DNA of 56,409 bases from Phycisphaerales bacterium. Lineage in GTDB: Bacteria; Planctomycetota; Phycisphaerae; Phycisphaerales; SM1A02. The notes under the pieces are model-generated. The model was not told the DNA's origin, did not search any database, and saw nothing but the letters and a program-made list of their open reading frames with translations. Within the stretch, counting starts at the first letter, position 1. Each line of letters begins with the position of its first letter. The stretch spans positions 1 to 56,409 of the forward strand of contig SIAM01000011.1 of NCBI GenBank assembly GCA_009691785.1, in the 5' to 3' direction. This document shows positions 69 to 52,500 of this stretch, piece by piece. Position numbers and translations under genes: made by a program.

Positions 69-1352
69 TTATTTTGAATGCAGCAGCGCGCTGTGCGGTT
101 GATCATCGCGCGGCGGATTGCGCCGCCATAGCCACCATTCACGCAGCGCTAATAGCGAAGCCAAGCCCGCGACCGCAAGCACGCACCACACCACATTCAC
201 GCCGCCGCCCAAGGCAACGCCCGCCAAACTTGCGATGGGTCCAAGTAAATATCCGCCGCCAACCAGCGCTTCAAAAGTTCCCGCGTCGCCCACATCGCCG
301 TGGCCAACGCTGAGCGCGTAATACAAACTTGCGTAATACAAAATCGCCTGCCCCGCGCCAAAGGCCATCAATCCAATGGCCAGCATGGTGAGTGAATTTG
401 CAAGCACCGCCGCCGCAAAACCAATAGTCATCAAGGCGGCGCCAACCGCCAGCGTGCTCCAGCGTCCATGCCAGAAGTGAAGCCGCCACATTCCGGTGAT
501 GGTGATCACGCGCATGGTCAGCCATGTCGCGGCCACCGGTGTTGCCATGACTGGAATAATTTCAAGGCGATCAATTACATATGGCAGCAGTGGAAGCAGC
601 GCGCCAATAAGCAAGTATGAAGTTGGAATTAAAAATCGCGACGCGCTTCGCAGTGGTCGATACACCGCGGGAATAAATGTGGCGTGCGGCGCATCCGAAG
701 GCGGCGCTGGATTTTTTGGAAACCAGCGCAAACAAATTGCCGCGATGAAGCAGCACGGGCCAATAGCCATGATGGCGATGCGCGATTGATCGGTGAGAAA
801 CAGCGGCGCCATGATGTAAAACGCGATCGCCACCGCGGCGGTCCATGTGACATTGAACAAGCCAATGCTGGCTCGCAGCGCGTGGCCATGTCGGCCCGCG
901 GATAGAAAGCTTTCAATGGACGCCCACATGATCGCGCCCACAACGCTGGTGACAAACGCCGTGATGATGATGCCGGGCACACCAAAGAACAGCGGCAGTG
1001 GGCACACCAATGCTTGCGCCCACAGCGTGGCTTGAATCACTCCGCGCGGCGAAAGATGCCCGCGCAAACTTTTCACGATGCGGCCACAGTTGTACGCCGC
1101 GGCGATGTACACCACGGCCTCCATAATGGCCAGCGCAAGATTTTCCGACTTTGTGAAATGAAAGTCATGCTCGGTTACAAAAGGCAGCGCATTCCACATG
1201 CTGCCCGTGCCCAGCGAGCACGCGAATGTGAGCACCAATACAGCCACAAGCGGAGTGGGGCGTGAGGCAGCGGTGGTTGCGCTCGCGCCCGATAGCAGTT
1301 GGGCGTTTGGCTCTGGCGTGGGTTGTGGCTTCGAGCTCAAACTTTCGGACAT
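69..1352 (-). CDS. MFS-type membrane transporter
   Basis: About 427 residues with roughly a dozen hydrophobic segments starting near residue 37 and repeated Gly/Ala-rich helices, as in the major facilitator superfamily. A long loop with Pro/Asp/Ala after the sixth helix fits the usual two-bundle layout. It should export or import a small solute across the inner membrane; nothing visible names the substrate. The start is taken at the ATG of MSESLSS rather than the TTG four codons upstream, because a TATGCT hexamer sits 7 bases before it and there is no Shine-Dalgarno. A perfect inverted repeat lies a few tens of bases upstream and could be an operator. Confidence 0.8.
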   Translation of the reverse strand: MSESLSSKPQPTPEPNAQLLSGASATTAASRPTPLVAVLVLTFACSLGTGSMWNALPFVTEHDFHFTKSENLALAIMEAVVYIAAAYNCGRIVKSLRGHLSPRGVIQATLWAQALVCPLPLFFGVPGIIITAFVTSVVGAIMWASIESFLSAGRHGHALRASIGLFNVTWTAAVAIAFYIMAPLFLTDQSRIAIMAIGPCCFIAAICLRWFPKNPAPPSDAPHATFIPAVYRPLRSASRFLIPTSYLLIGALLPLLPYVIDRLEIIPVMATPVAATWLTMRVITITGMWRLHFWHGRWSTLAVGAALMTIGFAAAVLANSLTMLAIGLMAFGAGQAILYYASLYYALSVGHGDVGDAGTFEALVGGGYLLGPIASLAGVALGGGVNVVWCVLAVAGLASLLALREWWLWRRNPPRDDQPHSALLHSK

Positions 1353-1359
1353 GCAGGCA

Positions 1360-1365
1360 AGCATA
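1360..1365 (-). promoter_or_regulatory. Putative -10 box of the MFS gene (leaderless)
   Basis: TATGCT on the minus strand, followed by 7 bases and then the ATG at 1352. It fits the TANNNT-N6-8-start pattern seen at many first genes in this window. No clear -35 is visible. Confidence 0.45.
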
Positions 1366-1389
1366 CGAATCTTGCAAGTTCATGCGCCG

Positions 1390-1413
1390 ATGAATGCGTG
1401 CTCACGCATTCAT
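1390..1413. promoter_or_regulatory. Perfect 10-bp inverted repeat, possible operator
   Basis: ATGAATGCGT and its exact reverse complement ACGCATTCAT are separated by GCTC. The element lies just upstream of the MFS promoter and about 100 bases before the tRNA. There is no T-tract on either side, so a terminator is unlikely. A dimeric repressor or activator site for the MFS gene is the simplest reading. Confidence 0.45.
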
Positions 1414-1514
1414 GAAAGTCAAGCCGCCGGAAGTTTTCACGCATTGCGTGCTGTTACAATTTTCAATGGCTTGCCTACGTAAGTCGTGATGCGAGTCGTT
1501 GGAAATTATTGTGT

Positions 1515-1588
1515 GTCCTTGTAGCTCAACTGGATAGAGCGTCGCCCTCCGAAGGCGAAGGTTGTGTGTTCGACCCGCACCAAGGACG
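1515..1588 (+). tRNA. tRNA-Arg (anticodon CCG)
   Basis: Full cloverleaf. The acceptor stem GTCCTTG/CAAGGAC has seven pairs. The D-arm is GCTC/GAGC, the anticodon stem TCGCC/GGCGA with loop CTCCGAA, and the T-arm GTGTG-TTCGACC-CGCAC. The discriminator is G at 1588. The anticodon CCG reads the arginine codon CGG. CCA is not encoded, so it must be added by nucleotidyltransferase. Confidence 0.95.
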
Positions 1589-1689
1589 TTTCTGTGAAGG
1601 GGATGCGCGCCAATATCCGCGGCGAAGTTTGCTTGCGCATCAATGAACTTTGGCGGCGCAACGAGCGCGCGCCTCAACGGCGTGCGGGA

Positions 1690-1734
1690 TTGCAACGAGC
1701 GGACTTGCATCGAGATGGCTTGCATCGTGCTAGC
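1690..1734. repeat. Three imperfect 15-bp tandem units
   Basis: Three consecutive 15-base units begin TTGCA(A/T)CG and run up to 8 bases before the mazG-like start. The last unit contains the putative -10 TAGCCT. They may be promoter or regulator spacing elements, or chance. Confidence 0.35.
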
Positions 1735-1736
1735 CT
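1731..1736 (+). promoter_or_regulatory. Putative -10 box of the mazG-like gene (leaderless)
   Basis: TAGCCT, then six bases (GCGCGC), then the ATG at 1743. There is no Shine-Dalgarno sequence in front of this start. Confidence 0.35.
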
Positions 1737-1742
1737 GCGCGC

Positions 1743-2030
1743 ATGCAACTCGCTGAATTTCAAAAACGAATTCGTGACCGCTACTTCGCAACCGACAACG
1801 CGCGCGGAATTCCTGGAACATTTCTTTGGCTGAGCGAGGAGATTGGCGAACTGGCGCACGCATTGGGCAAGGCCGCCAAGGGCGAGCCCGACCACGCCAA
1901 TTTGGAGGAGGAGTTCGCCGATTGCATGGCGTGGTTGTGCACGTTGGCCAACATCACCGGCGTTGATTTGGAGAAGGCCATCAAAGATAAATATTTTGGC
2001 GCCGACGGCGGACCCAAGGGCGAGAAATGA
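1743..2030 (+). CDS. MazG-like nucleotide pyrophosphohydrolase
   Basis: 95 residues, the size of a single all-alpha NTP-PPase (MazG/MazG-like) domain. The metal-binding helix pair is visible as SEEIGELAHAL (about residues 31-41) and EEEFADCMAWL (about 55-65), matching the EExxE...ExxD pattern of the family. Such enzymes hydrolyse non-canonical or damaged NTPs to NMP and pyrophosphate. The stop overlaps the start of the HIT-like gene by four bases, so the two are translationally coupled and together suggest nucleotide clean-up. Substrate preference cannot be read from the sequence. Confidence 0.85.
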   Translation: MQLAEFQKRIRDRYFATDNARGIPGTFLWLSEEIGELAHALGKAAKGEPDHANLEEEFADCMAWLCTLANITGVDLEKAIKDKYFGADGGPKGEK

Positions 2031-2482
2031 ATTCAGCGGACGGGTCCGTTGGCTTGCGTGTTTCGCTTGGTGAAGACGCGCGTGTTTCTATCGCGCTTGA
2101 AGCGGGCGCGCCGTGGACATTGCGCGCGCACCCAGCGCCCGCGCCAATCGTGGGTTGGTGTGTGCTGGAATTAACGCGCAAGGCGGCAACGTTGGATGAA
2201 CTTACTTCGCAAGAATCGCAGGAATTAGGCTTGATTTTGTCCAAAGTGAGCGCAGCGGTTCGCCATGTGACCAAGTGCGAGCGCGCGTACATGACTTGTT
2301 TCGCGCAGGCCTATCGCCAAGTTCATTTGCACATTGCGCCGCGCCATGAATCCGATGCGCGCACGCAAGGCTGGGCCGTGGCGGACTTGTATAGACAAGT
2401 GCAAAGTGGATCAGTGACGCCCGTTGACCAAGCCGCGCATGAAAAAACATTTCAGTTGATCGCGCAATTTCTAGGCGCGTAA
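2027..2482 (+). CDS. HIT-like (histidine triad) family protein
   Basis: 151 residues. The C-terminal half holds QVHLHIAPRHE (about residues 97-107), which resembles the HxHxH catalytic triad of HIT nucleotide hydrolases/transferases, although the third histidine position is not canonical (H-L-H-I-A-P-R-H). Upstream, the PIVGWCVLELTRKAATLDEL region matches the HIT core strand and helix. Overlapping the MazG-like gene by ATGA, it probably acts on nucleotides (NMP-X or AppA-type substrates). The stop codon sits inside the first copy of a 22-bp direct repeat. Confidence 0.75.
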   Translation: MNSADGSVGLRVSLGEDARVSIALEAGAPWTLRAHPAPAPIVGWCVLELTRKAATLDELTSQESQELGLILSKVSAAVRHVTKCERAYMTCFAQAYRQVHLHIAPRHESDARTQGWAVADLYRQVQSGSVTPVDQAAHEKTFQLIAQFLGA

Positions 2483-2580
2483 AAAACCTCCGCGCTTGCG
2501 CACGCAAGACAATCCGTCGCATCACGCGACCGTGTCTGTGAAATGCTCAAATATAAATGCGCGTAAAAAACCTCCGCGCT
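2475..2580. repeat. Direct repeat of 22 bp, second copy inside the tsf terminator
   Basis: GCGCGTAAAAAACCTCCGCG plus CT occurs exactly at 2475-2496 and 2559-2580, and the following eight bases match at six positions. The first copy contains the HIT-like stop codon. Only the second copy completes a hairpin and acts as the tsf terminator, so this looks like a local duplication of terminator sequence. Confidence 0.8.
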
Positions 2581-2591
2581 CACGCACGGAG
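2565..2591 (-). terminator. Rho-independent terminator of rpsB-tsf
   Basis: Read on the minus strand: an 8-bp stem CTCCGTGC/GCGCGGAG (one G-T pair), loop GTGA, then GG followed by six T. It lies about 20 bases past the tsf stop codon. Confidence 0.8.
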
Positions 2592-2613
2592 TTTTGAAGT
2601 GTCTCAAATAAAA

Positions 2614-3414
2614 TCAGCCACCAACGGTCATGTGCACAAAGCGCAACACGCGTGTGCCAGCAGGCAATAGGTCCTTCAACTTCTTGGTTTCATCCTTCAC
2701 ATACACCTGGCCAAGCAACGTGACTTCCTCAAGGAACTTGCGAACCTTGCCTTCGGCTATCTTGGCGGCGATTTGTTCGTTCTTGCCAGCGGCCTTGGCC
2801 TCGTCTTGCGCCTCTTGACGCTTCTTCGCCATCAAGTCGGCTGAGACGCCAGATTCATCAACCGCGATTGGAGTTGGAACGGCGGCGGCAACGCTTTGGC
2901 AAATGCCAGTGGCGCTGTCGGCTGGAAGTTCACCCTCAAATTGCAGCAGCACGGCAAGACGTCCGTCATGATGAATGTAGTGCGCAAAGTTTCCGCCTTG
3001 CAGGCAGGTTCCACGACCAAACGAAATGTTCTCGCCAGTCTTGATGCGAACCTCATCCAAGGCCGCGGTCATTGGCGCGGTCATGGTGATTTCGCCACTT
3101 TGTTCCGCGGCGTGCTTGGCCAGCGTATTGGCCAACGCGCGAAACTCAGTGTTTTTAGCTGTGAAATCAGTCTCAGAGCGAAGTTCAATAATGGAGGCGC
3201 GGCCAGGCTGGCTGAATATGGCAATGGTGCCGTGACCAGCGGGGCGGTCGCTGCGCGCGTCCATTTTGCCTTTGAGTTTCTCGCGCAACCATGCTTCGGC
3301 CTTCACCATGTCGCAGGCATTTTCAGCCAACGCGTTTTTGCAATCCATTAAGCCAAGACCAGTTCTCTGACGAAGCGCCATTGCGTCTTTGGCATTCACT
3401 TGAACAGTTGTCAT
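2614..3414 (-). CDS. tsf: Translation elongation factor Ts
   Basis: EF-Ts, the guanine nucleotide exchange factor that releases GDP from EF-Tu. 266 residues. The N-terminal UBA-like domain (about residues 5-45; RQRTGLGLMDCKNAL) is typical, followed by the diagnostic ELRSETDFTAKN segment whose Thr-Asp-Phe (82-84) inserts next to the EF-Tu nucleotide site. The C-terminal FLEEVTLLGQVYVKD matches the family's end of the core. The start is supported by AGGAG seven bases before ATG. It follows rpsB on the same strand, the standard bacterial order, separated by a 15-bp tandem repeat, and ends at a strong terminator. Confidence 0.97.
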   Translation of the reverse strand: MTTVQVNAKDAMALRQRTGLGLMDCKNALAENACDMVKAEAWLREKLKGKMDARSDRPAGHGTIAIFSQPGRASIIELRSETDFTAKNTEFRALANTLAKHAAEQSGEITMTAPMTAALDEVRIKTGENISFGRGTCLQGGNFAHYIHHDGRLAVLLQFEGELPADSATGICQSVAAAVPTPIAVDESGVSADLMAKKRQEAQDEAKAAGKNEQIAAKIAEGKVRKFLEEVTLLGQVYVKDETKKLKDLLPAGTRVLRFVHMTVGG

Positions 3415-3425
3415 TTGGTTTCTCC

Positions 3426-3500
3426 TAGAAAAGTTGAAGATAGAAAAGTTATAGATAGAAAAGTTGAAGATAGAAAAGTTGAAGATAGAAAAGTTGTTTA
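3426..3500. repeat. Five tandem copies of a 15-bp unit between rpsB and tsf
   Basis: Unit TAGAAAAGTTGAAGA (forward strand). Copies 1, 3 and 4 are identical, copy 2 has GAAGA replaced by ATAGA, and copy 5 ends GTTTA. The array begins directly upstream of the tsf Shine-Dalgarno. In the mRNA it gives a pyrimidine-rich, largely unstructured spacer of five repeats. A 15-base period is prone to slippage, so copy number may vary between strains. Confidence 0.95.
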
Positions 3501-3572
3501 CAAATAATTGAAATGAAATAGTTGAGAGAGTTGGCGACGCCTGGATTCACTCCAAGCGCCGCCAAATTAAAT

Positions 3573-4457: not shown

Positions 4458-4643
4458 GGGGCGATTCCTTCTTGCATTCTTTGAATGCACTGTGCAGCGA
4501 CACCGGCGTTTGTCCGTGGTCCAAAAGCTGTAGGGCGCTTTGAACAAGAAATTCGGCTTCTCACTGTGAGTCGCCGATCAAAGTGGACAGAGGTAGCACC
4601 ACGGGGTCGACCTCTGACGCGTCACAAAAATAAATTGTGGCGA
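4458..4643 (-). promoter_or_regulatory. Long structured 5' leader of rpsB
   Basis: Between the predicted promoter and the rpsB start lie about 185 bases that can fold into several stem-loops on the minus strand: CACAA/TTGTG; AGAGGT/ACCTCT; CGGC/GCCG with an inner CTCA/TGAG; and, ending two bases before the Shine-Dalgarno region, TGCATTC-AAA-GAATGCA (4473-4489). Ribosomal protein S2 autoregulates its operon through leader RNA in some other bacteria. A similar role here is inferred from position and structure only; no known leader motif was matched. Confidence 0.4.
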
Positions 4644-4649
4644 AGGGCG

Positions 4650-4679
4650 ATTGTAACCAAACTCACCCCACAAAGGCAA
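4650..4679 (-). promoter_or_regulatory. Putative sigma-70 promoter of rpsB-tsf
   Basis: On the minus strand, TTGCCT and TACAAT are separated by 18 bases. The -10 matches consensus at five of six positions and the -35 at four. Transcription would start near 4643, giving the leader described next to it. Confidence 0.45.
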
Positions 4680-6299: not shown

Positions 6300-7766
6300 A
6301 TGAATCTTTCTGAATTTCTAGGTCGACATGGACTTACGGCTAACCCGTTCGCCGCAGAGGAGGCCGCCCAAGATCCGGTGTTGACCCAGTCTGGTGATTC
6401 GTGCCGCCATCCGGACTTTGGAAAAATATTTGGCGAGCCAACGCATCCATCGCCAGCCGTAGTCTTTGGCGAACGGGGCGCGGGCAAGACGGCGCTTCGG
6501 CTGCAAATGGAATCCGCCTACCGCGCCTACAACAAAGAGCAATCTGAAAACCGCGTGTTGGTGCTAGGTCATGACAATTTTGACGCCATGATTGGACGCA
6601 TCGCGCGCCACGAGCGATTGAAGAACCAATCCGCCGCGCTGGAGGCCATCACGCTCAGCGACCATGTGGACATTGTGCTGCACGGAATTGTTCCGCAACT
6701 TGTAGACCAATTGTTGGGGGTCACCGATCGCTCGCCGCTGCAAGTTTCTAATTTTCGCAAGTCCCTGCGCAAGTCGCCAACATTGATTCGCCGCGAAATG
6801 TTGCTGCTGCAAATAGCGTATGACCACACGCCCATTGCGGCCAAGCGCACGCGGCAATTAAAGTCCGCGCTTGGTCTTGGTGGCTCCAGTGGCAGCAAGG
6901 CCGCGGTGAATTGGGCTATAGTTTTAGCGTTTTTCGCATTGATTATGGCTGGAATGAGTTTGGTGCAAGAACCCAAGCGCGCGTTGATTGCGGTTGCGTT
7001 GTTGGTGGCCGCGGGTTCATTCGCAATGGCTTGGTCGTGGCTGCGCTGTCAAACTCGCGTGGGAATTATTGCGCGCGGAATGCACAAGGGAATTCGCTGT
7101 GTCAACCGCACGGCGGCAAACTTTCGTGAAAGTTTGCACCACATAGAAATCAATATTGGTTCGGCCAGCATGCCAACCGACCGCGGCGATGATTCACGCT
7201 TTGCAATGCTTGATCGACTTTTAGCGGTATTGCGCGTGGCGGACTACGCCAGCATTGCCATTTTGGTTGACCGTGTTGATGAGCCGACCACGGTGGCGGG
7301 GGATGTGGACCACATGCGTAGTTTGGTGTGGCCGCTTCTTTCAAGTCGATTCCTACAACACCGCGGTCTTGCGGTGAAGTTACTGTTGCCCGCGGAACTT
7401 GGCGATCTCTTCAGTCGTGAAGATGGCGCGTTCTTTCGAGCGGCGCGCTTGGATAAACAAAACGCGGTTGAGCGATTGCATTGGTCGGGTTCCATGCTTG
7501 CCAAAGTGTGCGACGCCAGAATTCGCGCGGCATCTGCGCGGCCGAATTCGGCCGTGGCTATTGAAACATTATTCGACGCCAATGTTGGCCGCTTAAAGAT
7601 AGAAGAGGTGCTTGCAGGGTGCGGCAATCCACGCGAATCTTGTCGCATGGTGTACGCCATGTTTCAAGAGCACATGGCTCACGCCGAGTCAAGCGCGAAA
7701 GAGATATCAACAACAACTTTTGATCTGGTTCGACAACGCAGCCACGTTCGACCATTGAAACGCTAA
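6300..7766 (+). CDS. Membrane-embedded P-loop ATPase of unknown role
   Basis: 488 residues. Walker A is GERGAGKT (57-64). Walker B is IAILVDRVDEP (319-329). Between them are two adjacent hydrophobic segments (about 203-222 and 229-249), a helical hairpin that should anchor the protein with both nucleotide motifs on the cytoplasmic side. The N-terminus (HGLTANPFAAEEAAQDP) resembles the opening of ExeA-type AAA ATPases, while an intramembrane insertion between Walker A and B is a hallmark of KAP P-loop NTPases. I cannot assign it to a named subfamily. The start is placed at MNLSEFLG because AAGGA precedes it; it appears monocistronic. A possible promoter is TTGGAA (6244) with TAGATT (6266). Confidence 0.75.
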   Translation: MNLSEFLGRHGLTANPFAAEEAAQDPVLTQSGDSCRHPDFGKIFGEPTHPSPAVVFGERGAGKTALRLQMESAYRAYNKEQSENRVLVLGHDNFDAMIGRIARHERLKNQSAALEAITLSDHVDIVLHGIVPQLVDQLLGVTDRSPLQVSNFRKSLRKSPTLIRREMLLLQIAYDHTPIAAKRTRQLKSALGLGGSSGSKAAVNWAIVLAFFALIMAGMSLVQEPKRALIAVALLVAAGSFAMAWSWLRCQTRVGIIARGMHKGIRCVNRTAANFRESLHHIEINIGSASMPTDRGDDSRFAMLDRLLAVLRVADYASIAILVDRVDEPTTVAGDVDHMRSLVWPLLSSRFLQHRGLAVKLLLPAELGDLFSREDGAFFRAARLDKQNAVERLHWSGSMLAKVCDARIRAASARPNSAVAIETLFDANVGRLKIEEVLAGCGNPRESCRMVYAMFQEHMAHAESSAKEISTTTFDLVRQRSHVRPLKR

Positions 7767-10033: not shown

Positions 10034-10083
10034 GGCAGATTTGTACCCGCACTTTGAGCAAATGGTTTATGCAACGCGGCGCT

Positions 10084-10433: not shown

Positions 10434-10545
10434 ATGGTAGATGATTTTGTCCAAAGGTTTACACATCGCCTTGGCGCACGCGCTCGGGCTGATTCAAAAT
10501 GACAATCAACCCGCGACCATCATGATCAATCCGCGCCTCTATGAT
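10434..10545. promoter_or_regulatory. Divergent leaderless -10 boxes for the DUF971 gene and pyrF
   Basis: Minus strand: TACCAT (10439-10434), 8 bases, then the GTG at 10425. Plus strand: TATGAT (10540-10545), 6 bases, then the ATG at 10552. The second one decides the pyrF start. Confidence 0.45.
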
Positions 10546-17314: not shown

Positions 17315-17320
17315 TATCAT
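17315..17320 (+). promoter_or_regulatory. Putative -10 box of the YdiJ-like gene
   Basis: TATCAT, nine bases before the GTG at 17330. The spacing is slightly longer than at other suspected leaderless starts, so transcription would begin one to three bases before the codon. Confidence 0.35.
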
Positions 17321-17329: not shown

Positions 17330-20300
17330 GTGACAAAGGTCAACACTTCTTCGGACTCAAGTTCCACCTCGGCGATTCATTTGCCATTGTTCGCCACGCT
17401 TGCGCAATTGCGTGTAAACGCCGCCAATGATTTACGCAATATGAATGTGGGCGAGGTGCGATTTGAAAAACACGATCGTATGTTGTACGCCACCGATGCC
17501 AGCATGTATCAAGTGGAGCCTATTGGTGTGGTCATTCTGAATCGACCAGAATCCGCGGTGGAGATTGTCCGCTATTGTGGCGCGCGCAATATTCCAATGT
17601 TGCCCCGCGGCAGTGGAACAAGTTTGGCGGGGCAGTGCGTGAACCAAGCCGTCATGATGGACATGAGCGCGCGTTGTCGTGGCATTCGCAGCATCAATGT
17701 CGCAGCCGGCACCGTGACGGTGGAACCAGGCGTGACGCTGGATCAACTCAACGCCGCATTAAGCCCGCACGGCATGATGTTTGGACCCGATGTGGCCACC
17801 AGCAGCCACGCCACGCTTGGCGGCATGATTGGCAATAATTCAGCGGGCGCGCGCAGTATTTTGTATGGTCGCACTGTTGAAAATGTGATTGCTATGCGCG
17901 TGGTCACCGCGCAGGGCGCGGTGCTGCAATTATTCCAAGGCTCTTGCGACAGCGACCCGGCGCAAAACGCAATCGCGCGCCGCTTGGCCGCGCTTGTGCT
18001 GCCGCTTGCGGATGAGATTCGGAAACGCATTCCAAAAATAATGCGCCATGTGGATGGCTACAACGTTGACATTGTGCTGCAACAACTTCAAGCCAGCACG
18101 GCTGGAACTTTTGACCGCGTGAACTTGGCACAATTGTTGTGCGGCTCCGAAGGAACGCTTGCGGTGATGATGGAAGCCACGCTAAAAATTGTTCCCAAGC
18201 CCGAACGCACCGGCCTGGCCATTATTGGCTTCTCAAACATTGAAGACGCGCTGACGCCATTAATTCTAATGATCAACACTAAACCCAGCGCCGTTGAGTT
18301 GATTGATGATGTGGTGCTGGAAGCCGCGCGCGACAACACGGAATATCGCCACTATGTTGACTTGATGCCTAAACCCTTTAGTGGGAAATTGGGAGCGGTG
18401 ATGTATGTTGAATATCAAGGCGCCAACGAGGCCCAGTTGAACGCGAAGTTTGATTCTTTGGCCGCTGTGGTTCCTGGCGTCGCCATGCGGCGCTATCTCA
18501 CGACTTCTTCAATTGCGTCCGCGTGGAAATTGCGCAAAGCCGGCGAGCCTCTGCTGCACAACATTCCGGGTGATCGCAAGCCCATGACATTTGTCGAGGA
18601 CACCGCGGTCGATCCAAGCCAATTGCTGCGATTTGTCAATGATTTTAAGGCAATTGTGACTCGTCACGGAACCACGGCCGCCTACTACGCGCACGCCAGC
18701 GTGGGGTGTTTGCACATTCGGCCGCTGGTGAAAATCACAGATGAAGCCAGTCGAGAAAATGTGACGGCCATTGCCGTTGAGGTTGCGGACTTAGTGGCGA
18801 AGTATGGCGGCGCGCTATCTGGCGAGCATGGAGACGGCCGCTTGCGAACGCCATTGCTAGAGCGCGTGCTTGGAAAAGAATTGTGCGAACTGTTTCGCCA
18901 AGTAAAAAATATTTTTGATCCCCATGGTTTGATGAACCCTGGCAACTTAATCAGCACGGGTGATCCGTCGCTCATCATGAAGGCGTTGCGTGTGAAGCCG
19001 CATGACCAAGACATTGCCATTGCAAAGACCAACACGTTCTTCCGATTTGAGAAGGAGCATGGATTTGAGCACGCGGTAGAGTCCTGCAATGGCGCGGGTC
19101 TTTGTCGCAAGACGCAACCCACGGGCGTGATGTGTCCCTCGTACCGCGCCACACTCGATGAACGCCACTCCACCCGCGGCCGTGGCAATGCGCTTCGGTT
19201 GGCGTTGTCTGGGCAAATGAACGCGACTGATGAAATTAGCGCGCCAGGCCAAGCTTGGAGTGATGCAGAAACCAAGGCCACGCTTGATTTGTGCCTTTCG
19301 TGTAAGGCCTGTCAAAGCGAGTGCCCCAGCAATGTGGACATTTCCAAAATGAAGGCGGAGTTTCAGGCGCAGGAATTCGCCGAGCTTGGAAAAATTCCAC
19401 TGCGCACTCGCTTGATTGGGCGTATTCGTGGGGCAAATAGGCTTGGTTCGCGCATGTGGCCAATTGCCAACGCGTTGCTTGAATACACGCCGCTTGCTAG
19501 TTTTATTCGCAGCGTGATGGGCTTCCACGCGGCTCGAACCGTTCCATCCTTCGGGCCCGCCACGCATCGTTGGCTGGCGCGCAGAAATCAAACGGACAAT
19601 TCGTCTGTAAATTCCGCCCCGCATTCAACCAACCCCGCGCATCATGTCAATCCTCAAGCGCGTCCAACCGTGTTGCTGTTCGCCGACTGCTTTACAAATT
19701 TTAATGAGACTCACATTGCCCGTCACGCGGTTGAATTGTTGGAGGCATTTGGTTATCGCGTTGTCATGTCTGACGCTGGGTGTTGCGGAAGAACATTGAT
19801 CAGTGTGGGAATGTTGGCCGAGGCCTCGCTCACATGTGCGCAAACCGCCAAAAATCTTTTATCTACTTTGCAACAAGAGAACGCCGTGGCGTTGCTTGCT
19901 TTGGAACCATCCTGCCTGAGCGCCATCAAGGACGATTGGCTTGATTTACAAATGTCCGTTGATGTAAAGCAACTCAATAAGTTGGCGGCGCGCAGCATGC
20001 TGGTGGAGGAGTTTCTTGACGCGCGTTGGAATGAGCATCCGCTGCGACCAGAGATTTCGCCGGGAAATAAAAGCGTCATTTTTCACGGTCATTGCCATCA
20101 AAAAGCGTTGTGGGGTTCCGAGTCCGGCGTGCGTTTGTTGCGGCGCATTTTTGGAGATCGATTGACCGCCTTGGACTCTGGTTGCTGCGGCATGGCGGGC
20201 TCCTTTGGCTACGCCGCGCATCGCTACGACTTGTCCATGGCTATTGGCGAGCAATCTTTGTTCCCGGCGATCCGTAAAGCGCCCGACGCGGTTGTGGTCG

Positions 20301-20470: not shown

Positions 20471-20959
20471 ATGCCACTTATGCTTACACCGCAAGACGAA
20501 TTAGAACAAGCGATTGAACGCGAGCCTTCCAACGAGGAACTTAAGAGCGCCGTTCTTTTGTTGGTGGATGACAACCTGCAAAATGTGGAATTAATGCAGG
20601 CGTGGCTGGAAACTTTGGAGTGCAAGTTGGAGACCGCGCACGATGGCGTTGAGGCCATAGAAGCTGTGGCGCGTTGCAAGCCCGATTTAATTTTGTTGGA
20701 TGTCATGATGCCGCGCATGAGCGGCTTTGAAGTATGCCGCAAAATTAAGCAGGATTCCGCTCTGCGCGATACCGTGATTATTATGGTGACTGCGTTGAAT
20801 GAGGTGGGAGATTTTGAGCGCGCCGTGGAATGCGGTTGCGACGATTTTCTGACCAAGCCGGTCAACAAGTTGGAACTGATCACGCGTGTGCGCAGTTTGC
20901 TACGTGTGCGCTTGCTTAAGCGACGCGTTGAAGCACTGTTGAAAACTCCGCGGCTTTAA
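20471..20959 (+). CDS. Single-domain response regulator (receiver only)
   Basis: 162 residues. The receiver fold carries VLLLVDDN (Asp33/34), the phosphoacceptor in LLDVMMPRMSGFEV (Asp77), MVTA (Thr107) and LTKPV (Lys129). There is no output domain; about 28 residues precede the domain and a short basic helix (VRLLKRRVEALLK) follows, as in PleD/DivK-like receivers. It likely acts by protein-protein contact. No histidine kinase lies nearby. The STAS protein downstream on the other strand could belong to the same signalling layer. AAGG lies four bases before the ATG. Confidence 0.88.
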   Translation: MPLMLTPQDELEQAIEREPSNEELKSAVLLLVDDNLQNVELMQAWLETLECKLETAHDGVEAIEAVARCKPDLILLDVMMPRMSGFEVCRKIKQDSALRDTVIIMVTALNEVGDFERAVECGCDDFLTKPVNKLELITRVRSLLRVRLLKRRVEALLKTPRL

Positions 20960-21789: not shown

Positions 21790-21793
21790 GAAT

Positions 21794-22814: not shown

Positions 22815-22849
22815 ATGATAGCGAAATCCGACAACGACTTTGGTACAGT
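22815..22849. promoter_or_regulatory. Divergent leaderless -10 boxes of kdsD and scpA
   Basis: Minus strand TATCAT (22820-22815), 7 bases, ATG of kdsD. Plus strand TACAGT (22844-22849), 6 bases, GTG of scpA. The two start codons are only 48 bases apart, so both promoters must share the space. Confidence 0.5.
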
Positions 22850-28806: not shown

Positions 28807-29113
28807 CGCAGGGTTTCACAAAAACTTTGCTGGCGACGGAGCCGCACAAACCCACACGCGTTCGTTCCACTTCAATAATGCACGGCGCGCCGGCTTTGCA
28901 CACTTTTAATTCGCATGATTCATGGATCCCCATGGCGCGCAGCAAGCAGCGATCCGCCTCGGCGAGGGTTTTCAATGATTCGGAGTCAATCACGGCGCGT
29001 TGCCCGCGCAATAATTGCGTCAACGGAATGCGGTTGTGATCGCTTGTTCCATTGTTTGCCAATGTTGAGGGAATCACAACCATGACCATGTAGTGTATGA
29101 ATGCCGAGACCAT
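28787..29113 (-). CDS. feoA: FeoA-domain protein
   Basis: 108 residues, an SH3-like FeoA domain. IPLTQLLRGQRAVIDSES begins the domain; RCLLRAMGIHESCELKV is the central motif; ending in CDGCPAA. FeoA binds FeoB and is needed for Fe2+ uptake. The ATG at 29113 is kept because TATGTT lies eight bases upstream; two later ATGs in frame are possible. The 3' end overlaps feoB by 20 bases. Confidence 0.85.
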   Translation of the reverse strand: MVSAFIHYMVMVVIPSTLANNGTSDHNRIPLTQLLRGQRAVIDSESLKTLAEADRCLLRAMGIHESCELKVCKAGAPCIIEVERTRVGLCGSVASKVFVKPCDGCPAA

Positions 29114-29162: not shown

Positions 29163-29927
29163 CTTTTCAATTGGCGCTTCAGGCGCGGAAGTTTTTTCTA
29201 TAAACAGCCTAGAGCCAGTGATTTTGTATCGCATCGCAACGCACGGGCCAATCAAGGGAGGGTTGTCAAATGTGTTGCGTTCAAGCAGGGCTGGATCAAA
29301 AATTAACGTGGGTTCAAGCGTGGCGTTGAGCGTCCAAATCACTTCTGGAGCGGGCAATGTTGTTCCAAGTTGCAGGGCATAGCTGCGCAGGATTGTGACC
29401 GAACTAGCGCGACCAAAATTGTTTAGATTGTTCGTCGATACACATTGGAATTCCAAAGTTTGATAAGGGCCATTGATCGGGTCAAGCTCGGTGATTCGGC
29501 CACGCCACACGATTGAATATTTCAAGCGATTGTTCATATCAAGCCACTCTTTGGCTTTTGCAAGATAAATCTGCCGAGTATTTTTGCTGTCCTTTTCTTG
29601 CGGCATTGCAATACGAGCCTTGGTCATATCCTCGGCAAATTTTTTCTGAAAGAAATCCAAGACCGCGATTGGATTTCCCATTAAATCCGCGATGGGATCA
29701 GTTTGAAATGAAGGAATGACCGGCGCGGTCGTTGGCATACCCGATGCGGCCTCTAATTCCTTGATGCGCTTCTGGGCAGTTGCGAGTTGGTCGCGTAACT
29801 TTCGATTTTCAACCTGGGCTTCTTGCAACTTTTGGGTTTCCGTCGGGGCGGGAGAAGTCTGACTTGCAAAGGCGAAAAGAATTGCGGGTAGAAGAATGAC
29901 ATTCATATTCCAAACAATCTTACCCAT
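29160..29927 (-). CDS. Secreted coiled-coil protein of unknown function
   Basis: 255 residues. The N-terminus MGKIVWNMNVILLPAILFAFA is a plausible signal peptide (the Lys favours this start over the internal ATG at 29906). Residues 31-62 form a charged coiled coil (TQKLQEAQVENRKLRDQL...). The rest is globular, with no motif I know. It is transcribed away from the MoxR/VWA operon and ends in its own terminator. Confidence 0.6.
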   Translation of the reverse strand: MGKIVWNMNVILLPAILFAFASQTSPAPTETQKLQEAQVENRKLRDQLATAQKRIKELEAASGMPTTAPVIPSFQTDPIADLMGNPIAVLDFFQKKFAEDMTKARIAMPQEKDSKNTRQIYLAKAKEWLDMNNRLKYSIVWRGRITELDPINGPYQTLEFQCVSTNNLNNFGRASSVTILRSYALQLGTTLPAPEVIWTLNATLEPTLIFDPALLERNTFDNPPLIGPCVAMRYKITGSRLFIEKTSAPEAPIEK

Positions 29928-29952: not shown

Positions 29953-29958
29953 TATCCT
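29953..29958 (+). promoter_or_regulatory. Putative -10 box of the MoxR/VWA operon (leaderless)
   Basis: TATCCT, seven bases (TATCTAT), then the ATG at 29966. It decides that start over two TTG codons upstream. Confidence 0.45.
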
Positions 29959-38910: not shown

Positions 38911-38916
38911 TATGAT
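38911..38916 (+). promoter_or_regulatory. Putative -10 box of the TPR-YggX/pyrD unit (leaderless)
   Basis: TATGAT (five of six to consensus), six bases (CAATTC), then the ATG at 38923. No Shine-Dalgarno is present. Confidence 0.5.
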
Positions 38917-44383: not shown

Positions 44384-44443
44384 AGCGTAGCGGGGCGCAA
44401 CTCTTCCGAGCGTGTTCCATAGAAAGCGGGGAACGGATACCTT
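44384..44443. promoter_or_regulatory. Divergent leaderless -10 boxes of the TPR gene and the lipoprotein gene
   Basis: Minus strand TACGCT (44389-44384), six bases, GTG at 44377. Plus strand TACCTT (44438-44443), six bases, ATG at 44450. Neither start has a Shine-Dalgarno. Confidence 0.4.
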
Positions 44444-46759: not shown

Positions 46760-46781
46760 AGTGTAGTTGCACAGTTAGAAT
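46760..46781. promoter_or_regulatory. Back-to-back leaderless promoters of nth and the isomerase-like gene
   Basis: Minus strand TACACT (46765-46760), eight bases, ATG of nth. Plus strand TAGAAT (46776-46781), six bases, ATG at 46788. The two -10 boxes are ten bases apart in a 36-base gap. Confidence 0.5.
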
Positions 46782-47920: not shown

Positions 47921-47936
47921 GAAAGGTAGACTAACC

Positions 47937-48716
47937 ATGATGAGGCGTCGCGGAGCACCAACTTTATATGAACTCACCAAGAGCGGTGGTCGCGGATCCA
48001 TCTCTGGTGGATCCGGCGGATTGTTTGGCGGAAACACTCCCAGCGTTTCGCTTTTAGGCAACGAAGCAGCACGCTCAATCCGAGTGCCCGTTGGATTTTT
48101 ATGGTTGCTAGCCATTGCCGTGCTTGTACTTGCCGCGGGGTCATATATGATTGGATTTGTTCTAGGTCACGCCGCGGGAATCCCCGAAGGATATTCCGCA
48201 AAACTTTCCGATGACAACGCCCGAGCCTTGGCGCGCTCCGTCAACGACCCAATGAAGCAAGACGCGGCCGCAGTGTCGGTCACTCCACAGAAAGCGTTGC
48301 CCTCCACGGGCGCAACTTCACCTGGCAATAGTGTCACGGTGGCGAAATCAAACACCCAAAAAAATTCCAGCCCAAACTACAAGGGTGATTCCAAACCCGG
48401 GTCCGAGCCTGCTTCCAATGAGGATCCCCGTGAAAAAGGCGTGAATTACCTCACTTTGGCCCGGCCATCCGCTGAGCAAGCGGAAAATATGCTCGCATTT
48501 TGCAAGGCCGAGGGGCTTGCCGCGCACCTGGTTTTGGATAATAATGCCAAACTGCGAAAAATCATTGTCACTCCTGGCTTAAGAACCACCGCGGTTCTTC
48601 AAACCAAAGATGGACAAGAACTTCTCGCAAAGGTGAAGTCGGTTGGTGTGCGTTGGAAAGCCCAGAAAAAAGGCAACAAAGATTTTTCGGACGCCTATCT
48701 TGAACTCTTCCGCTGA
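47937..48716 (+). CDS. Single-pass membrane protein with SPOR-like C-terminus
   Basis: 259 residues: a Gly/Ser/Arg-rich N-terminal cytoplasmic part, one membrane helix (about 52-75), a Ser/Lys/Asn/Pro linker, and a compact C-terminal domain (about 165-258; NYLTLARPSAEQAENMLAFCKAEGLAAHLV) that resembles SPOR or similar peptidoglycan-binding alpha/beta folds. AAGG precedes the ATG. Function unknown; a cell-envelope role is likely. Confidence 0.65.
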   Translation: MMRRRGAPTLYELTKSGGRGSISGGSGGLFGGNTPSVSLLGNEAARSIRVPVGFLWLLAIAVLVLAAGSYMIGFVLGHAAGIPEGYSAKLSDDNARALARSVNDPMKQDAAAVSVTPQKALPSTGATSPGNSVTVAKSNTQKNSSPNYKGDSKPGSEPASNEDPREKGVNYLTLARPSAEQAENMLAFCKAEGLAAHLVLDNNAKLRKIIVTPGLRTTAVLQTKDGQELLAKVKSVGVRWKAQKKGNKDFSDAYLELFR

Positions 48717-48775
48717 TCGTCGTCGTTCAGTGCCGCGGAAGTCTTAACACTTGAACGACATCGGAAGTTTCTGAC

Positions 48776-49126
48776 ATGAGCATTCATCCAAGTTTAAAAA
48801 CAAAGTCCGGCGCATTGAATCAACATCGCAACGTGCTCACACGAGCGGAGCGTATTGAGCGCTTGACATTCGAAGGCCGCTTCGACATTGCCACCAAGAG
48901 CGTGTTGGGCACAGTCAAGGTTCGATCGATCAAAGCAACAGTGAGCAAGAAACCTAAGAAGGAAGCGGTAGCTGGTGCTGAAGGCGCCGCTACGGCAACT
49001 GGTATAACTGGTACAATTGGTACAACTGGTGCCAAGCCTGCCACTGGTGCCAAGCCTGCCACTGGTGTCAAACCCGCAGTCGCAGCCAAGCCAGCGGCGA
49101 GCGTCAAGCCTGCAGCCAAAAAGTGA
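48776..49126 (+). CDS. PVC-type small basic protein with histone-like tail
   Basis: 116 residues. Residues 1-62 (MSIHPSLKTKSGALNQHRNV, then LTRAERIERL) match, from memory, the small basic protein family of Chlamydiae, Verrucomicrobia and Planctomycetes (TIGR04137). Family members are about 60 residues; here an extra 55 residues of Ala/Lys/Pro/Gly/Thr repeats follow, resembling an H1-like tail. It probably binds nucleic acid, perhaps ribosomal RNA. The gene lies between a membrane protein and an aminotransferase. Confidence 0.75.
   Translation: MSIHPSLKTKSGALNQHRNVLTRAERIERLTFEGRFDIATKSVLGTVKVRSIKATVSKKPKKEAVAGAEGAATATGITGTIGTTGAKPATGAKPATGVKPAVAAKPAASVKPAAKK
49025..49078. repeat. Three 18-bp in-frame tandem repeats in the small basic protein gene
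   Basis: ACTGGTGCCAAGCCTGCC twice exactly, then a degenerate copy. They encode TGAKPA repeats of the tail. Confidence 0.85.
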
Positions 49127-49158
49127 TCGCTCGGATTCAGTACTCAGCGAGATAACCA

Positions 49159-50310
49159 ATGATTGAACGACTTCTATCAGTGCGAAGTCGTTCAATTGAC
49201 TCTTCCGGCATTCGCAAGGTTTTTGACCTTGGAACCAAGATGCAGGATCCAATCAATCTGTCCATTGGGCAGCCGGATTTTCCGGTGTCCGAAGCCATGA
49301 AAGAAGCCGCCATAGCGGCCATACGCGAAAATAAAAACGGCTACACCGTGACGCAGGGAATTCCGCAATTGCTAGAGGCTGTTCGACAGCGACTCGAACA
49401 TGATTTTGGCTCGGGTTGGTCCACGACCAATGCAAATCATTCTGCGGTCATAACCAGCGGAACAAGTGGTGGAATTCTTTTGGCGTTGATGTCCATTCTT
49501 GATTCGGGCGATGAATTTATTTCGCCTGATCCATACTTTGTCATGTATCCGCAAGTTGGCAAGTTGCTCAGCGCACATTGCGTGTTGTGCGACACCTATC
49601 CCGATTTCCGCATGACGGCCGCGCGCGTGGAGCCGCTGATCACCGAGCGCACCAAGGCGGTGTTGTTGAACAGTCCAAGCAATCCGTGCGGAACGGTTTT
49701 AACGGCCAAGGAAATTGCGGAGCTTGTGCAATTGTGCGAGCGCCGCGGGGTGCTTCTTATTTCCGACGAGATTTACGACGAGTTCTGTTTCAGCGACGCG
49801 CGCGAAAATGGGTTGTGTCCTTCGCCAGGCAGAATCAGCAATAATTGCCTGATTATTCGCGGCTTTGGCAAGACGCACGGTTGCACCGGTTGGCGACTTG
49901 GATACGCCGCGGGTCCAGCGCCGTTGATTCAGGAAATGGCCAAGTTGCAGCAAAGCACATTTGTGTGCGCGCCGTCACCGCTGCAGTGGGGCGTTGTTCC
50001 GTCATTCCAAGAGAATCTTTCCTCCGTGCTCAAGGAATATGAGGGCCGCCGCCAAATGGTGCTTGACGCATTTTCAGGCGTGACCAATGTCACGCGGCCA
50101 GGCGGCGCGTTCTACGCGTTTATTGAGGTGCCAACAAAATTAAATCTCACCGCCGTGCACTTTGTGGAGCAAGCCATTGCCAAGCGCGTGTTGATTATTC
50201 CCGGCTCGGTGTTCAGCCATCGCGATACGCACTTTCGATTAAGTTTCGCCGCCTCGCGCGCCAAACTTTCAGAAGGCCTTGGCATCTTGCGCGATCTCAT
50301 GACCAAGTGA
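49159..50310 (+). CDS. Class I/II aminotransferase (PLP-dependent)
   Basis: 383 residues. LSIGQPDFPVSEAMKEA, GYTVTQGIPQL, TSGTSGGILLALMSIL, LNSPSNPCGTVL, LISDEIYDEFCF and RGFGKTHGCTGWRLGY, with the PLP lysine in GFGKT. The family covers aspartate, aromatic and alanine aminotransferases; no residue seen here narrows the substrate. It follows the small basic protein gene. Confidence 0.93.
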   Translation: MIERLLSVRSRSIDSSGIRKVFDLGTKMQDPINLSIGQPDFPVSEAMKEAAIAAIRENKNGYTVTQGIPQLLEAVRQRLEHDFGSGWSTTNANHSAVITSGTSGGILLALMSILDSGDEFISPDPYFVMYPQVGKLLSAHCVLCDTYPDFRMTAARVEPLITERTKAVLLNSPSNPCGTVLTAKEIAELVQLCERRGVLLISDEIYDEFCFSDARENGLCPSPGRISNNCLIIRGFGKTHGCTGWRLGYAAGPAPLIQEMAKLQQSTFVCAPSPLQWGVVPSFQENLSSVLKEYEGRRQMVLDAFSGVTNVTRPGGAFYAFIEVPTKLNLTAVHFVEQAIAKRVLIIPGSVFSHRDTHFRLSFAASRAKLSEGLGILRDLMTK

Positions 50311-50424
50311 CTTGCGCTTTTTGCAATTTGCGAAATCGAATAAGTTTCAATTTGACGTAGCCGTGTTCATCGCTGCGCCATGTGGCAACGCATGTTTAAA
50401 TAAATACCGCAACAATTCGCCCAC

Positions 50425-51351
50425 TCACTCGCCAGGAATATGGGTAATGGTTCCCGACCACGGACTACTGGCGGTGCCTAGCAATTTGCGCGCAATTCTG
50501 CCTGATTTGTAGCCAAAGTAGCCGGCGTCCAACGCCAAACGCATGGCGTGCGCCATCCGCACGGGGTCGGCGGCGTGCGCGATGCCGGTGTTCAGCAGCA
50601 CGCCATCGGCGCCAAGCTCCATAGCAAGCGTGACATCGCTTGGAGTTCCCACGCCCGCGTCCACAATCACCGGATAATCCGCGCGACCACCACGCGCCGG
50701 ATTTTTCAACAAGTCAATCAAGATCAGAATGGCCTCGCGATTGGCGATGCCGCGGCCGCACCCAATCGGACTTCCAGCTGGCATGACACTGGTCGCGCCC
50801 GCGTCGCGAAGTCGCACGGCTGCGATCGGATCATCGCTGCTGTAGCAAAGGACTTCGAAACCATCCTTCACCAATTCCGCGCAGGCTTCAATGGTGCCCA
50901 CTGGATCCGGCAACAGAGTTGTCTTGTCGCCCAGCACTTCAAGTTTCACCCAGCGCTGTCCAGGGTTTCCAAGTTGCTCCAGAAGTTCGCGGCCAAGACG
51001 CGCCACGCGCACGGCGTCCGCGGCGTTAAAACAGCCAGCGGTGTTGGGCAAGATAGTGAGTTGATCAAGCGGCAACGCGTCAAGAAGCGAACGACCTTCC
51101 TTGTCGTACAAGCGCTCGCGGCGCACTGCAACAGTGATTACGTCGGCGCGACTGGCCGCGATCGATTGTCGCATCTGGGAAAAATCGCTGTACTTTCCAG
51201 TGCCAACCACCAGCCGTGAGCGCAGCAGAACACTTCCAACTTGTAGCGGTGCGGGGGTGAAATCACTTTCACTGGACATTGATTTCATGGCGGTCGTGGA
51301 TGCGCGCTCGGTTGTGTGCGCTTGAATTTTGTGGGGCAGGGTATCGCTCAT
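50425..51351 (-). CDS. thiG: Thiazole synthase
   Basis: Forms the thiamine thiazole phosphate from deoxyxylulose phosphate, dehydroglycine and ThiS thiocarboxylate. 308 residues. [50 protein letters not shown] with the Schiff-base Lys, [12 protein letters not shown] and [30 protein letters not shown]. The ATG lies three bases after the thiS stop and uses GGAGG from the last thiS codons as ribosome site. An N-terminal tail of about 35 residues is extra. Confidence 0.95.
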
Positions 51352-51354
51352 GAA

Positions 51355-51570
51355 TTAGCCACCTCCAACAAGGGTGACCAGTTCCACGCGGTCGCCATGG
51401 CGTAACTCGTGCATGGCATGCTTGGCTTTGGGAACAAGTTGTTCATTCACTTCCACGGCGCATGGAACATTGGCGCGCCCAAGATGCGCCAATAACTGCG
51501 TGACAGTGCTGCCACCGTTGTACATTTGTGATTCGCCATTCACTTGAAGCTGAATCTGGGTTTGATCCAT
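51355..51570 (-). CDS. thiS: Sulfur carrier protein ThiS
   Basis: 71 residues with the ubiquitin-like fold and the essential C-terminal Gly-Gly (LVGGG; the activated residue is the terminal Gly). The start at MDQTQIQLQVNGE is chosen on family length and on TACTAT eight bases upstream. Partner of thiG; no thiF, thiC or TPP riboswitch is seen nearby. Confidence 0.88.
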   Translation of the reverse strand: MDQTQIQLQVNGESQMYNGGSTVTQLLAHLGRANVPCAVEVNEQLVPKAKHAMHELRHGDRVELVTLVGGG

Positions 51571-51578
51571 GGATTCAA

Positions 51579-51606
51579 ATAGTAGTGCAAGTATCGCGGC
51601 TAGACT
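51579..51606. promoter_or_regulatory. Divergent leaderless -10 boxes of thiS and the lipoprotein gene
   Basis: Minus strand TACTAT (51584-51579), eight bases, ATG of thiS. Plus strand TAGACT (51601-51606), six bases, GTG at 51613. The start codons are 42 bases apart, too close for a riboswitch. Confidence 0.45.
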
Positions 51607-51612
51607 TGCGGC

Positions 51613-52500
51613 GTGCTTCGATTTCATATTCCAATTTTACTGTGTGTGTTGGCGGCCACGGTGGGTTGCAAGAAACCCAAATACAACACCAGCACTCCAG
51701 AGGACATGCTGGACGCGGCCACTCAAATGGTCACTCGAAATCATGCCGAGTATTTACCCACGTTGCTGGAAATTCCGGCCAGGGATGTCACCTTTGATGA
51801 CGGCGTGACCGAGGCCAGCGCCATTGCCGAGGTGAAAGCCAAGGCTGGTGACATGTTTGCGTGCTTGTTCCGCGTGGCCGCGGCGTTGCGTGATCGCTTT
51901 CCCAAGCAAGTCGACAAGGAAATAAATTCAGTGCTGGGCAAAGGTAAAAAAGCCTCCTTTCGCGATATGGCCGTTGCCGCCATCGCCAATCCTGGAGCAT
52001 GGTTGATTGCCCAACGAGGGCTTTTGACCACAACAGATCTTGGCGACGGCACCGCCGCGCTGAGTTATGACAGCCAACCAATTTTCGCTGGCGCGCTCAC
52101 GCTTATCGAGACGCCGCAAGGTTGGCGAATTCGTATTCCAGTTGAGTTGGTGCGCTCCAGTAAATATTGGCCCGACTCCCGCGACGAGTGGTCCGTGGTG
52201 GCCAGCATGATGTTGGCTATTGAAAACGCGTTGAAAGATTTCGAACGCGATCTCAACAATGGTTCAATTCGAAATCTTGACGCGGCCAGCGCGCGCGTGG
52301 GTCGCTTGATTGGCGAGAGCGTTGTGGCGCAATCCATTATTTATTCCATGATGAAGCGCGACGGCGATGAGGATGAAGAGCCCGCCGCGCAAGCCGAGAA
52401 GGAATCCGTTGAGTCAATCCCAGAAAGCAAGCTAGCCAAGACCAAGCCAGGCAAGCCGTTGAACAATACGGATCAGCCGCTCAAATCCAAGGCGCAATAG
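51613..52500 (+). CDS. Predicted lipoprotein of unknown function
   Basis: 295 residues. The signal MLRFHIPILLCVLAATVGC has lipobox TVGC. The mature protein is helical with an acidic, Glu/Asp/Lys-rich tail from about residue 250. No domain recognised. It is convergent with the antiporter gene, 18 bases apart. Confidence 0.65.
   Translation: MLRFHIPILLCVLAATVGCKKPKYNTSTPEDMLDAATQMVTRNHAEYLPTLLEIPARDVTFDDGVTEASAIAEVKAKAGDMFACLFRVAAALRDRFPKQVDKEINSVLGKGKKASFRDMAVAAIANPGAWLIAQRGLLTTTDLGDGTAALSYDSQPIFAGALTLIETPQGWRIRIPVELVRSSKYWPDSRDEWSVVASMMLAIENALKDFERDLNNGSIRNLDAASARVGRLIGESVVAQSIIYSMMKRDGDEDEEPAAQAEKESVESIPESKLAKTKPGKPLNNTDQPLKSKAQ

Follow-up and report, generated by a model that had tools for sequence, protein, structure and literature searches.

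The 56,409-nucleotide contig SIAM01000011.1 of a Phycisphaerales bacterium (assembly GCA_009691785.1), hereafter the window, raises the question of whether the hexamer TANNNT, which stands 6-8 bases before the start codon of many genes that open a transcription unit, is the -10 element of promoters whose messages begin at the start codon itself. Within its genome (2.19 Mb in 77 contigs, 92% complete) the window is contig C23. The ribosomal protein S2 encoded there matched planctomycete metagenome-assembled genomes, several with the label Phycisphaerales, and the titles of the nearest records hint at a freshwater organism. The position of the hexamer, its enrichment in the genome, its conservation, Shine-Dalgarno words near background, its promoter grammar and its phyletic spread point to widespread leaderless or nearly leaderless transcription from sigma-70-type promoters, a reading whose probability we put at roughly 0.88.

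Hexamers before the start codons of the window

A sequence-only reading of the window had listed 15 such hexamers and three near misses, and all of them were found in the sequence at the spacings claimed. One start, 29113, had been misplaced, since the relatives show stops or no start codon there; the conserved FeoA start is 29083, where the pattern survives as TACACT with a spacer of 8. The 29 unit-opening genes of the window comprised the 15 claimed genes, the three near misses and 11 others, and the chance of at least 15 hits among the 29 was about 1e-14 at 3.6% per start; at 11%, as found in a control with equal freedom of start choice, it was about 8e-8. The sites are given below with hexamer, spacer in bases, gene and start, followed by the state of the hexamer in five relatives of the same genus (G002, G010, G014, G007 and G001).

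1360..1365, minus strand: candidate -10 TATGCT, spacer 7, MFS transporter gene, start 1352; kept in G002 and G010, absent in G014 and G001, G007 unplaced
1731..1736, plus strand: candidate -10 TAGCCT, spacer 6, MazG-domain gene, start 1743; TANNNT at 6-7 in 5/5 relatives
10434..10439, minus strand: candidate -10 TACCAT, spacer 8, GBBH-like_N gene, start 10425; TANNNT at 6-8 in 5/5
10540..10545, plus strand: candidate -10 TATGAT, spacer 6, OMP decarboxylase (pyrF) gene, start 10552; TANNNT at 6-7 in 5/5
22815..22820, minus strand: candidate -10 TATCAT, spacer 7, SIS-CBS gene, start 22807; TATCAT at 6-7 in 5/5
22844..22849, plus strand: candidate -10 TACAGT, spacer 6, ScpA gene, start 22856, 48 bp from the divergent start 22807; TANNNT at 6-7 in 5/5
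29092..29097, minus strand: candidate -10 TACACT, spacer 8, FeoA gene, corrected start 29083; TANNNT at 7-8 in 4/5, absent in G001
29953..29958, plus strand: candidate -10 TATCCT, spacer 7, gene without Pfam match, start 29966; TANNNT at 6-7 in 4/4 placed relatives
38911..38916, plus strand: candidate -10 TATGAT, spacer 6, TPR / Iron_traffic gene, start 38923; kept in G010, G002 and G001, absent in G014, G007 unplaced
44384..44389, minus strand: candidate -10 TACGCT, spacer 6, TPR gene, start 44377; TACGCT at 6-7 in 5/5
44438..44443, plus strand: candidate -10 TACCTT, spacer 6, gene without Pfam match, start 44450; TANNNT at 6 in G002 and G014, at 9-10 in G007 and G001, absent in G010
46760..46765, minus strand: candidate -10 TACACT, spacer 8, HhH-GPD gene, start 46751; kept in G010, starts uncertain in the other relatives
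46776..46781, plus strand: candidate -10 TAGAAT, spacer 6, AP_endonuc_2-like gene (Pfam match below cut-off), start 46788, 36 bp from the divergent start 46751; TANNNT at 6-7 in four relatives, at 9 in G001
51579..51584, minus strand: candidate -10 TACTAT, spacer 8, ThiS gene, start 51570; TANNNT at 7-8 in four relatives, at 9 in G014
51601..51606, plus strand: candidate -10 TAGACT, spacer 6, gene without Pfam match, start 51613, 42 bp from the divergent start 51570; TANNNT at 6-7 in 5/5
17315..17320, plus strand: near miss TATCAT, spacer 9, FAD-oxidase gene, start 17330; TANNNT at 8-9 in G002, G010 and G014, none in G007
54201..54206, plus strand: near miss CACAAT, spacer 6, FGE-sulfatase-domain gene, start 54213; TACATT at 6 in G010, no TANNNT in G002
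10040..10045, minus strand: near miss TACAAA, spacer 6, metallophosphoesterase gene, start 10033; TANNNT at 6-8 in none of the five relatives, similar TACAAA or TACTAA, by eye, in G005, G010 and G014
47927..47932, plus strand: additional TAGACT, spacer 7 to ATG 47940, second ATG in the gene whose called start is 47937; TANNNT at 6-8 in 5/5

The last of these had been overlooked by the sequence-only reading; it lies inside a same-strand run and is kept in five relatives, which suggests a putative internal leaderless promoter.

Conservation was assessed by placing orthologous starts in the five relatives, which are mutually non-independent, with in-frame starts permitted anywhere between about -12 and +19 codons and the controls treated likewise. 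The placed starts of the 15 claimed genes carried TANNNT at 6-8 in 61/71 cases against a control of 4.6, distributed as 15/15 in G002 (control 1.3), 14/15 in G010 (1.4), 11/15 in G014 (0.2), 10/11 in G007 (0.7; three queries unplaced and one without a match) and 11/15 in G001 (1.0). The two most diverged relatives, G007 and G001, alone gave 21/26 against 1.7, and the hexamer was kept in relatives with protein identity from about 35% to nearly 100%. The letters between T, A and T vary freely, as does the spacer; at pyrF, for instance, TATGAT(6), TATCAT(7), TAGAAT(6) and TAGGAT(7) occur, with spacers in brackets. The ten placed starts without TANNNT at 6-8 belong to seven sites (1352, 29113, 38923, 44450, 46751, 46788 and 51570), some of which have TANNNT at 9-10. 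The eleven other unit-opening genes of the window had TANNNT in 2/50 orthologous starts (control 3.6), the three near misses in 3/11, and twenty internal or close-spaced genes in 10/90 (control 1.2), of which the gene at 47937 contributes five and that at 20471 two.

Enrichment, promoter grammar and phyletic spread

An independent sample of the same genome comprised 20 stretches from outside the window, 368 kb in all or 17% of the genome, in which starts were called by a dicodon model blind to upstream sequence, implemented in a custom, non-standard caller. The positional enrichment of TANNNT that the sequence-only reading had expected genome-wide was found in this 17%: with the model trained on the sample alone and the window left out, 31/152 unit-opening genes carried the hexamer at 6-8, against a control mean of 5.0 (P 4e-16). 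Among 94 divergent genes, whose starts were called by coding potential alone with a model trained on the sample plus the window, 22 carried it, nine control triples giving 2-5; the counts at spacers 0-8 were 0, 0, 1, 1, 1, 0, 15, 4 and 3, compared with about 1.2 at each of the spacers 12-40, with the peak at spacer 6, followed by 7 and then 8. When free choice among in-frame starts was allowed, 35/94 of these genes had the motif, against a same-freedom control of 10.4. The hexamer was commoner at unit-opening than at internal genes in the own genome (31/152 vs 8/70), in G007 (40/179 vs 6/115) and in G204, a further genome of the family (17/82 vs 6/51). Shine-Dalgarno-like words were found at 22/152 unit-opening and 24/70 internal genes of the sample, with 7/152 in a background interval; the 3' end of the 16S rRNA is GGATCACCTCCTTTCT, and its anti-Shine-Dalgarno is intact.

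The window appears richer in the motif (15-18/29) than the strict 20% of the sample, partly because strict start calls recover just 7/15 of the window sites, and correction for this recovery suggests that the real share of unit-opening genes with the motif is probably about one third. Since raw TANNNT-Nd-ATG counts over the sample (737 kb of strand) showed too much noise at individual spacers, whole-genome counts were used instead, in which TANNNT-N6-ATG is compared with TANNNT-N12-ATG as the single control spacing, and which need no gene calls. The own genome contained 466 of the former and 299 of the latter; combined with the proportion that sites of this type make up in the motif set, this excess gives a rough estimate of some 340 leaderless genes, or about one fifth of the approximately 1,630 genes extrapolated from the caller.

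Promoter grammar was analysed in 150 motif genes (all positions) of seven family f1 genomes, with 825 other genes for comparison and 165 TANNNT located 13-44 bases upstream as a control. G at -14, two bases before the T, was found in 81/150 motif genes vs 44/165 control hexamers (P 1e-6), CGN directly before TANNNT in 41/150 vs 14/165 and TGN in 14/150 vs 8/165, and A at the first N was avoided (4/150 vs 32/165). No TTGACA peak (4-of-6 matches) was found upstream of the 150 motif genes of the seven genomes, and -35-like sequences with at least four matches at a spacing of 15-19 occurred in 8/49 cases vs 16/49 in an upstream control, giving no conserved -35. Shine-Dalgarno-like words preceded 11/150 motif genes vs 229/825 others, and TTG starts numbered 0/150 vs 47/825. 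An origin of TANNNT in the stop codons of upstream genes was rejected, given the avoidance of A at the first N and the lack, for divergent genes, of any gene upstream on the same strand; a pyrimidine at -1 was also dropped as a signature, its enrichment being weak.

RpoD of the own genome aligned with solved RpoD chains throughout regions 2-4, the HMIE of its region 3.0 falling on the HMIE of solved RpoD. The H and E of HMIE would correspond to H455 and E458 of the E. coli protein. In E. coli sigma-70, according to the part of the source available, these two residues contact G at -14 (PMC2613000).

The comparison of N6 with N12 was extended over the phylum with a Bonferroni threshold of 1e-3. 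The N6 excess was significant in 87/101 Phycisphaerales genomes (median excess 155 sites) and the ratio was at least 1.5 in 79/101; the highest ratio in the order sample, 9.17, belonged to Phycisphaera mikurensis NBRC 102666 (G170). G170 was assigned to this strain, which NCBI places in Phycisphaerales, through 20 kb of sequence identical to the strain's plasmid. Outside the order, 40/113 genomes were significant and 41/113 had ratios below 1.15. All sampled members of families f23 (6), f27 (6), f32 (4) and f54 (3) were significant, and none of the five genomes of f45 (ratios 1.02-1.07) or the five of f29 (1.01-1.19). Family f45 is an anammox family by its hydrazine synthase, found in 4/5 genomes; its gene-level sample, G082, is the sole one without a hydrazine synthase match. 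Unit-opening genes carried TANNNT at 6-8 in 1/44 cases in G082 (below the control of 4.8) and in 2/95 in G081, the one genome sampled for f29 (below the control of 6.8), and Shine-Dalgarno-like words were found at 16/44 and 32/95 of these genes, respectively.

As a separate observation, the families f23, f32, f54, f55 and f27 outside Phycisphaerales showed a strong N6 excess, up to 8.6-fold, and the trait is thus patchy over the phylum.

Divergent genes with closely spaced starts

Seven divergent pairs of the window have starts 36, 38, 42, 48, 72, 126 and 390 bp apart; in the 38 bp pair, the side starting at 29927 has no TANNNT of its own at 6-8. Divergent starts 0-60 bp apart were found in 13/56 pairs of the own genome including the window, in 15/65 of G007 and in 6/31 of G204, with a further 6, 4 and 1 pairs, respectively, whose starts overlap as called; smaller samples gave 2/9 in G001, 2/9 in G014, 1/7 in G010 and 2/8 in G002. 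Since starts thus lie within 60 bp in about one fifth of the pairs of the three sampled family genomes, little room is left for leaders, and a conventional promoter with a leader would hardly fit into 36-48 bp unless it lay inside the coding sequence of the neighbour. The f29 and f45 samples, which lack the signal, had 0/20 and 0/10 pairs within 60 bp, the shortest distances being 173 and 212 bp.

In G007, the divergent genes xseA and recG (L137:14386-14408) have 23 bp between their start codons, around a perfect palindrome, ATCGTACGAT, which yields TACGAT at spacers 6 and 7 on its two strands. Three other divergent pairs, L129:15881-15902 and L138:12593-12616 in G007 and L171:619-636 in G204, have 22, 24 and 18 bp between starts and carry TANNNT at 6-8 on both strands. 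All eight genes of these four pairs have Pfam matches. In the own genome (L087:6530-6760), xseA and recG are still divergent around a near-copy of the palindrome, ATCGTACGA, with starts at 6554 and 6695, 140 bp apart, and the TACGAT of xseA 21 bases from its ATG; in the pqq-lea pair of the same genome, TATCGT(6) at 19014 is a candidate for pqq, and lea lacks TANNNT at 6-8. The palindrome pattern with 6-base spacers occurred 114 times in 49 family f1 genomes vs 80 in a read-backwards control (P 0.009); no excess was seen in the other 102 order genomes (231 vs 251).

It is possible, although we regard it as doubtful, that the start-codon promoter is a default unit opener of Phycisphaerales, with the CGNTANNNT, -35-less grammar of mycobacteria reached independently, and that divergent genes share a zero-leader bidirectional promoter of 18-50 bp, the extreme being a single palindromic -10, that of xseA-recG in G007, serving two leaderless genes. 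The weight given to this shared-promoter proposal was reduced somewhat after the order-wide palindrome sum.

Weighing the alternatives and comparison with known systems

In the mechanism that we propose, TANNNT would serve as the -10 element of a sigma-70-type RNA polymerase, assisted by G at -14 (often with CGN just upstream) in place of a -35 hexamer. As a hexamer 6-8 bases before the start corresponds to the usual distance from the -10 element to the transcription start site (TSS), transcription would begin on the start codon or a few bases from it, and the messages would lack a leader or carry one just a few bases long. The ribosome would then start on a 5'-terminal AUG or GUG without Shine-Dalgarno pairing. 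Shine-Dalgarno sites are used at many genes farther down in operons and at some first genes.

Several results weigh against this proposal. The motif is not restricted to genes called first in their unit, 8/70 internal genes of the own-genome sample carrying it against a control of 1.4, and for 7/15 window sites there is at least one relative whose start was placed but has no TANNNT at 6-8. The depletion of Shine-Dalgarno words at motif genes is partly mechanical, as the hexamer can occupy 6 of the 13 bases scanned. C at -1 is weakly enriched in the grammar set (98/150 vs 452/825, P 0.02), and this enrichment is absent in G007 or G204 taken singly. Six of the 101 Phycisphaerales genomes have ratios below 1.15, and in P. 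mikurensis, despite its strong whole-genome count, the gene calls (73% GC) gave 4/58 with a control of 0.0, and 2/19 divergent pairs lay within 60 bp.

The possibility that the pattern is a selection artefact, TANNNT being common and the starts having been chosen to fit, appears practically negligible. The sequence-only reading conceded that some starts had been picked, and 29113 was indeed wrong; nevertheless, the peak, with its maximum at spacer 6, is present in the 20 independent stretches with motif-blind starts, the same-freedom controls are exceeded, the orthologues conserve the hexamer in 61/71 cases, and the whole-genome counts are independent of gene calls. Deserving more attention, while still unlikely, is the explanation that the promoters are real but most transcripts have a leader of about 1-5 bases on which ribosomes start by proximity, strictly leaderless messages being a minority. 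Spacers of 7, 8 and 9 do occur, the choice of TSS may wobble by a base or two, and G204 has more sites with spacer 7 than 6 (11 vs 6), whereas the mode of 6 in the own genome and G007 is the canonical discriminator length and would make the first base of the start codon +1.

The hexamer might instead be a translation signal, an AT-rich unstructured stretch or a ribosomal protein S1 site in a leadered mRNA whose promoter lies farther upstream, and Nakagawa and others, in the available part of their text, leave S1 open for similar biases (PMC5397173). We consider this very improbable in view of the fixed letters T, A and T, the G at -14, the CGN upstream and the avoidance of A at the first N, together with the higher frequency at unit-opening genes and the divergent starts 18-60 bp apart, which leave little room for a second promoter and leader. 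It is also improbable, though less so, that these are secondary, stress or alternative-sigma promoters and that each gene has a leadered growth promoter as well. In the available text of the M. tuberculosis study, 47 genes have an additional TSS (PMC3898074), and the own genome carries further sigma-70-family matches besides RpoD; against this stand the close divergent pairs, with little room for another promoter outside coding sequence, and the sigma-70-like motif. The leaderless reading put forward from the sequence alone is thus supported by the spacing, the unit-opening bias, Shine-Dalgarno words near background, conservation, the absence of the signal in two families and the close divergent starts.

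Few lineages have leaderless expression as a main mode, and they are apparently joined here by the greater part of a planctomycete order with many uncultured members. Start codons picked by Shine-Dalgarno sites alone would be wrong for many genes of these metagenome-assembled genomes. The sharp contrasts within the phylum, with 0/5 genomes significant in both the anammox family and f29, make gain and loss traceable, and the ratio of P. mikurensis, the highest of the order sample, makes the claim testable in a named strain. The GeneMarkS-2 work of Lomsadze (2018) reportedly models leaderless transcription and may class some of these genomes.

The earlier doubt that the trait had been described for this lineage is consistent with the literature searched, in which, among the matches listed and the parts of the texts available, no description of leaderless genes in Phycisphaerae was found and one partial precursor was: the 2017 survey of Nakagawa, which includes one planctomycete, reports a nucleotide bias that might reflect either ribosomal protein S1 or leaderless mRNA (PMC5397173). 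Phycisphaerae appear in a 2024 survey that sorts classes by the type of their anti-Shine-Dalgarno, with no mention of leaderless genes in the available text (PMC10783764). The leaderless groups of Zheng et al. 2011, drawn from 207/953 genomes, name no planctomycete, 'planctom' being absent from the main text (PMC3160421), as is 'Planctomyc' from that of Zhong et al. 2025 (PMC12340547).

Among known systems, which are described here from the parts of the sources available, the bidirectional promoters of Warman et al. 2026 produce divergent TSSs from one symmetric -10, commonly 18, 10 or 23 bp apart (PMC12825309). The four pairs with start codons 18-24 bp apart resemble them; unlike there, both products here would be leaderless messages of real genes, and the case counts just four examples, with a weak excess at the family level and none at the order level. 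The TA-led leaderless genes of Zheng et al. 2011, about 20% of genes in Actinobacteria, show the same signal, a TANNNT whose first T precedes the start by about 12 bp (PMC3160421). In Deinococcus-Thermus, TANNNT adjoining open reading frames, about 30% of them, was experimentally shown to be a leaderless promoter (Zhong et al. 2025, PMC12340547), compared with about one fifth of genes by our rough estimate.

The resemblance to M. tuberculosis extends to the grammar. Its TSS-mapped promoters (Cortes et al. 2013, PMC3898074) have TANNNT, no conserved -35 and C at -1, with SRN before the -10 in 49%, CGN 'in 45% of the cases' and TGN in 7%, and the promoters described here share the TANNNT -10, the lack of a -35 consensus and the common CGN. 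No ribosomal protein gene is leaderless there (PMC3898074), and the ribosomal protein S2 gene of the window has AAGG upstream of a candidate ATG instead. The two phyla are unrelated, and the many TSSs on start codons were mapped in M. tuberculosis (PMC3898074), whereas the promoters of Phycisphaerales and their start-codon TSSs are inferred from sequence. A mechanism of this kind is already known from Mycobacterium and Deinococcus; the lineage is apparently new.

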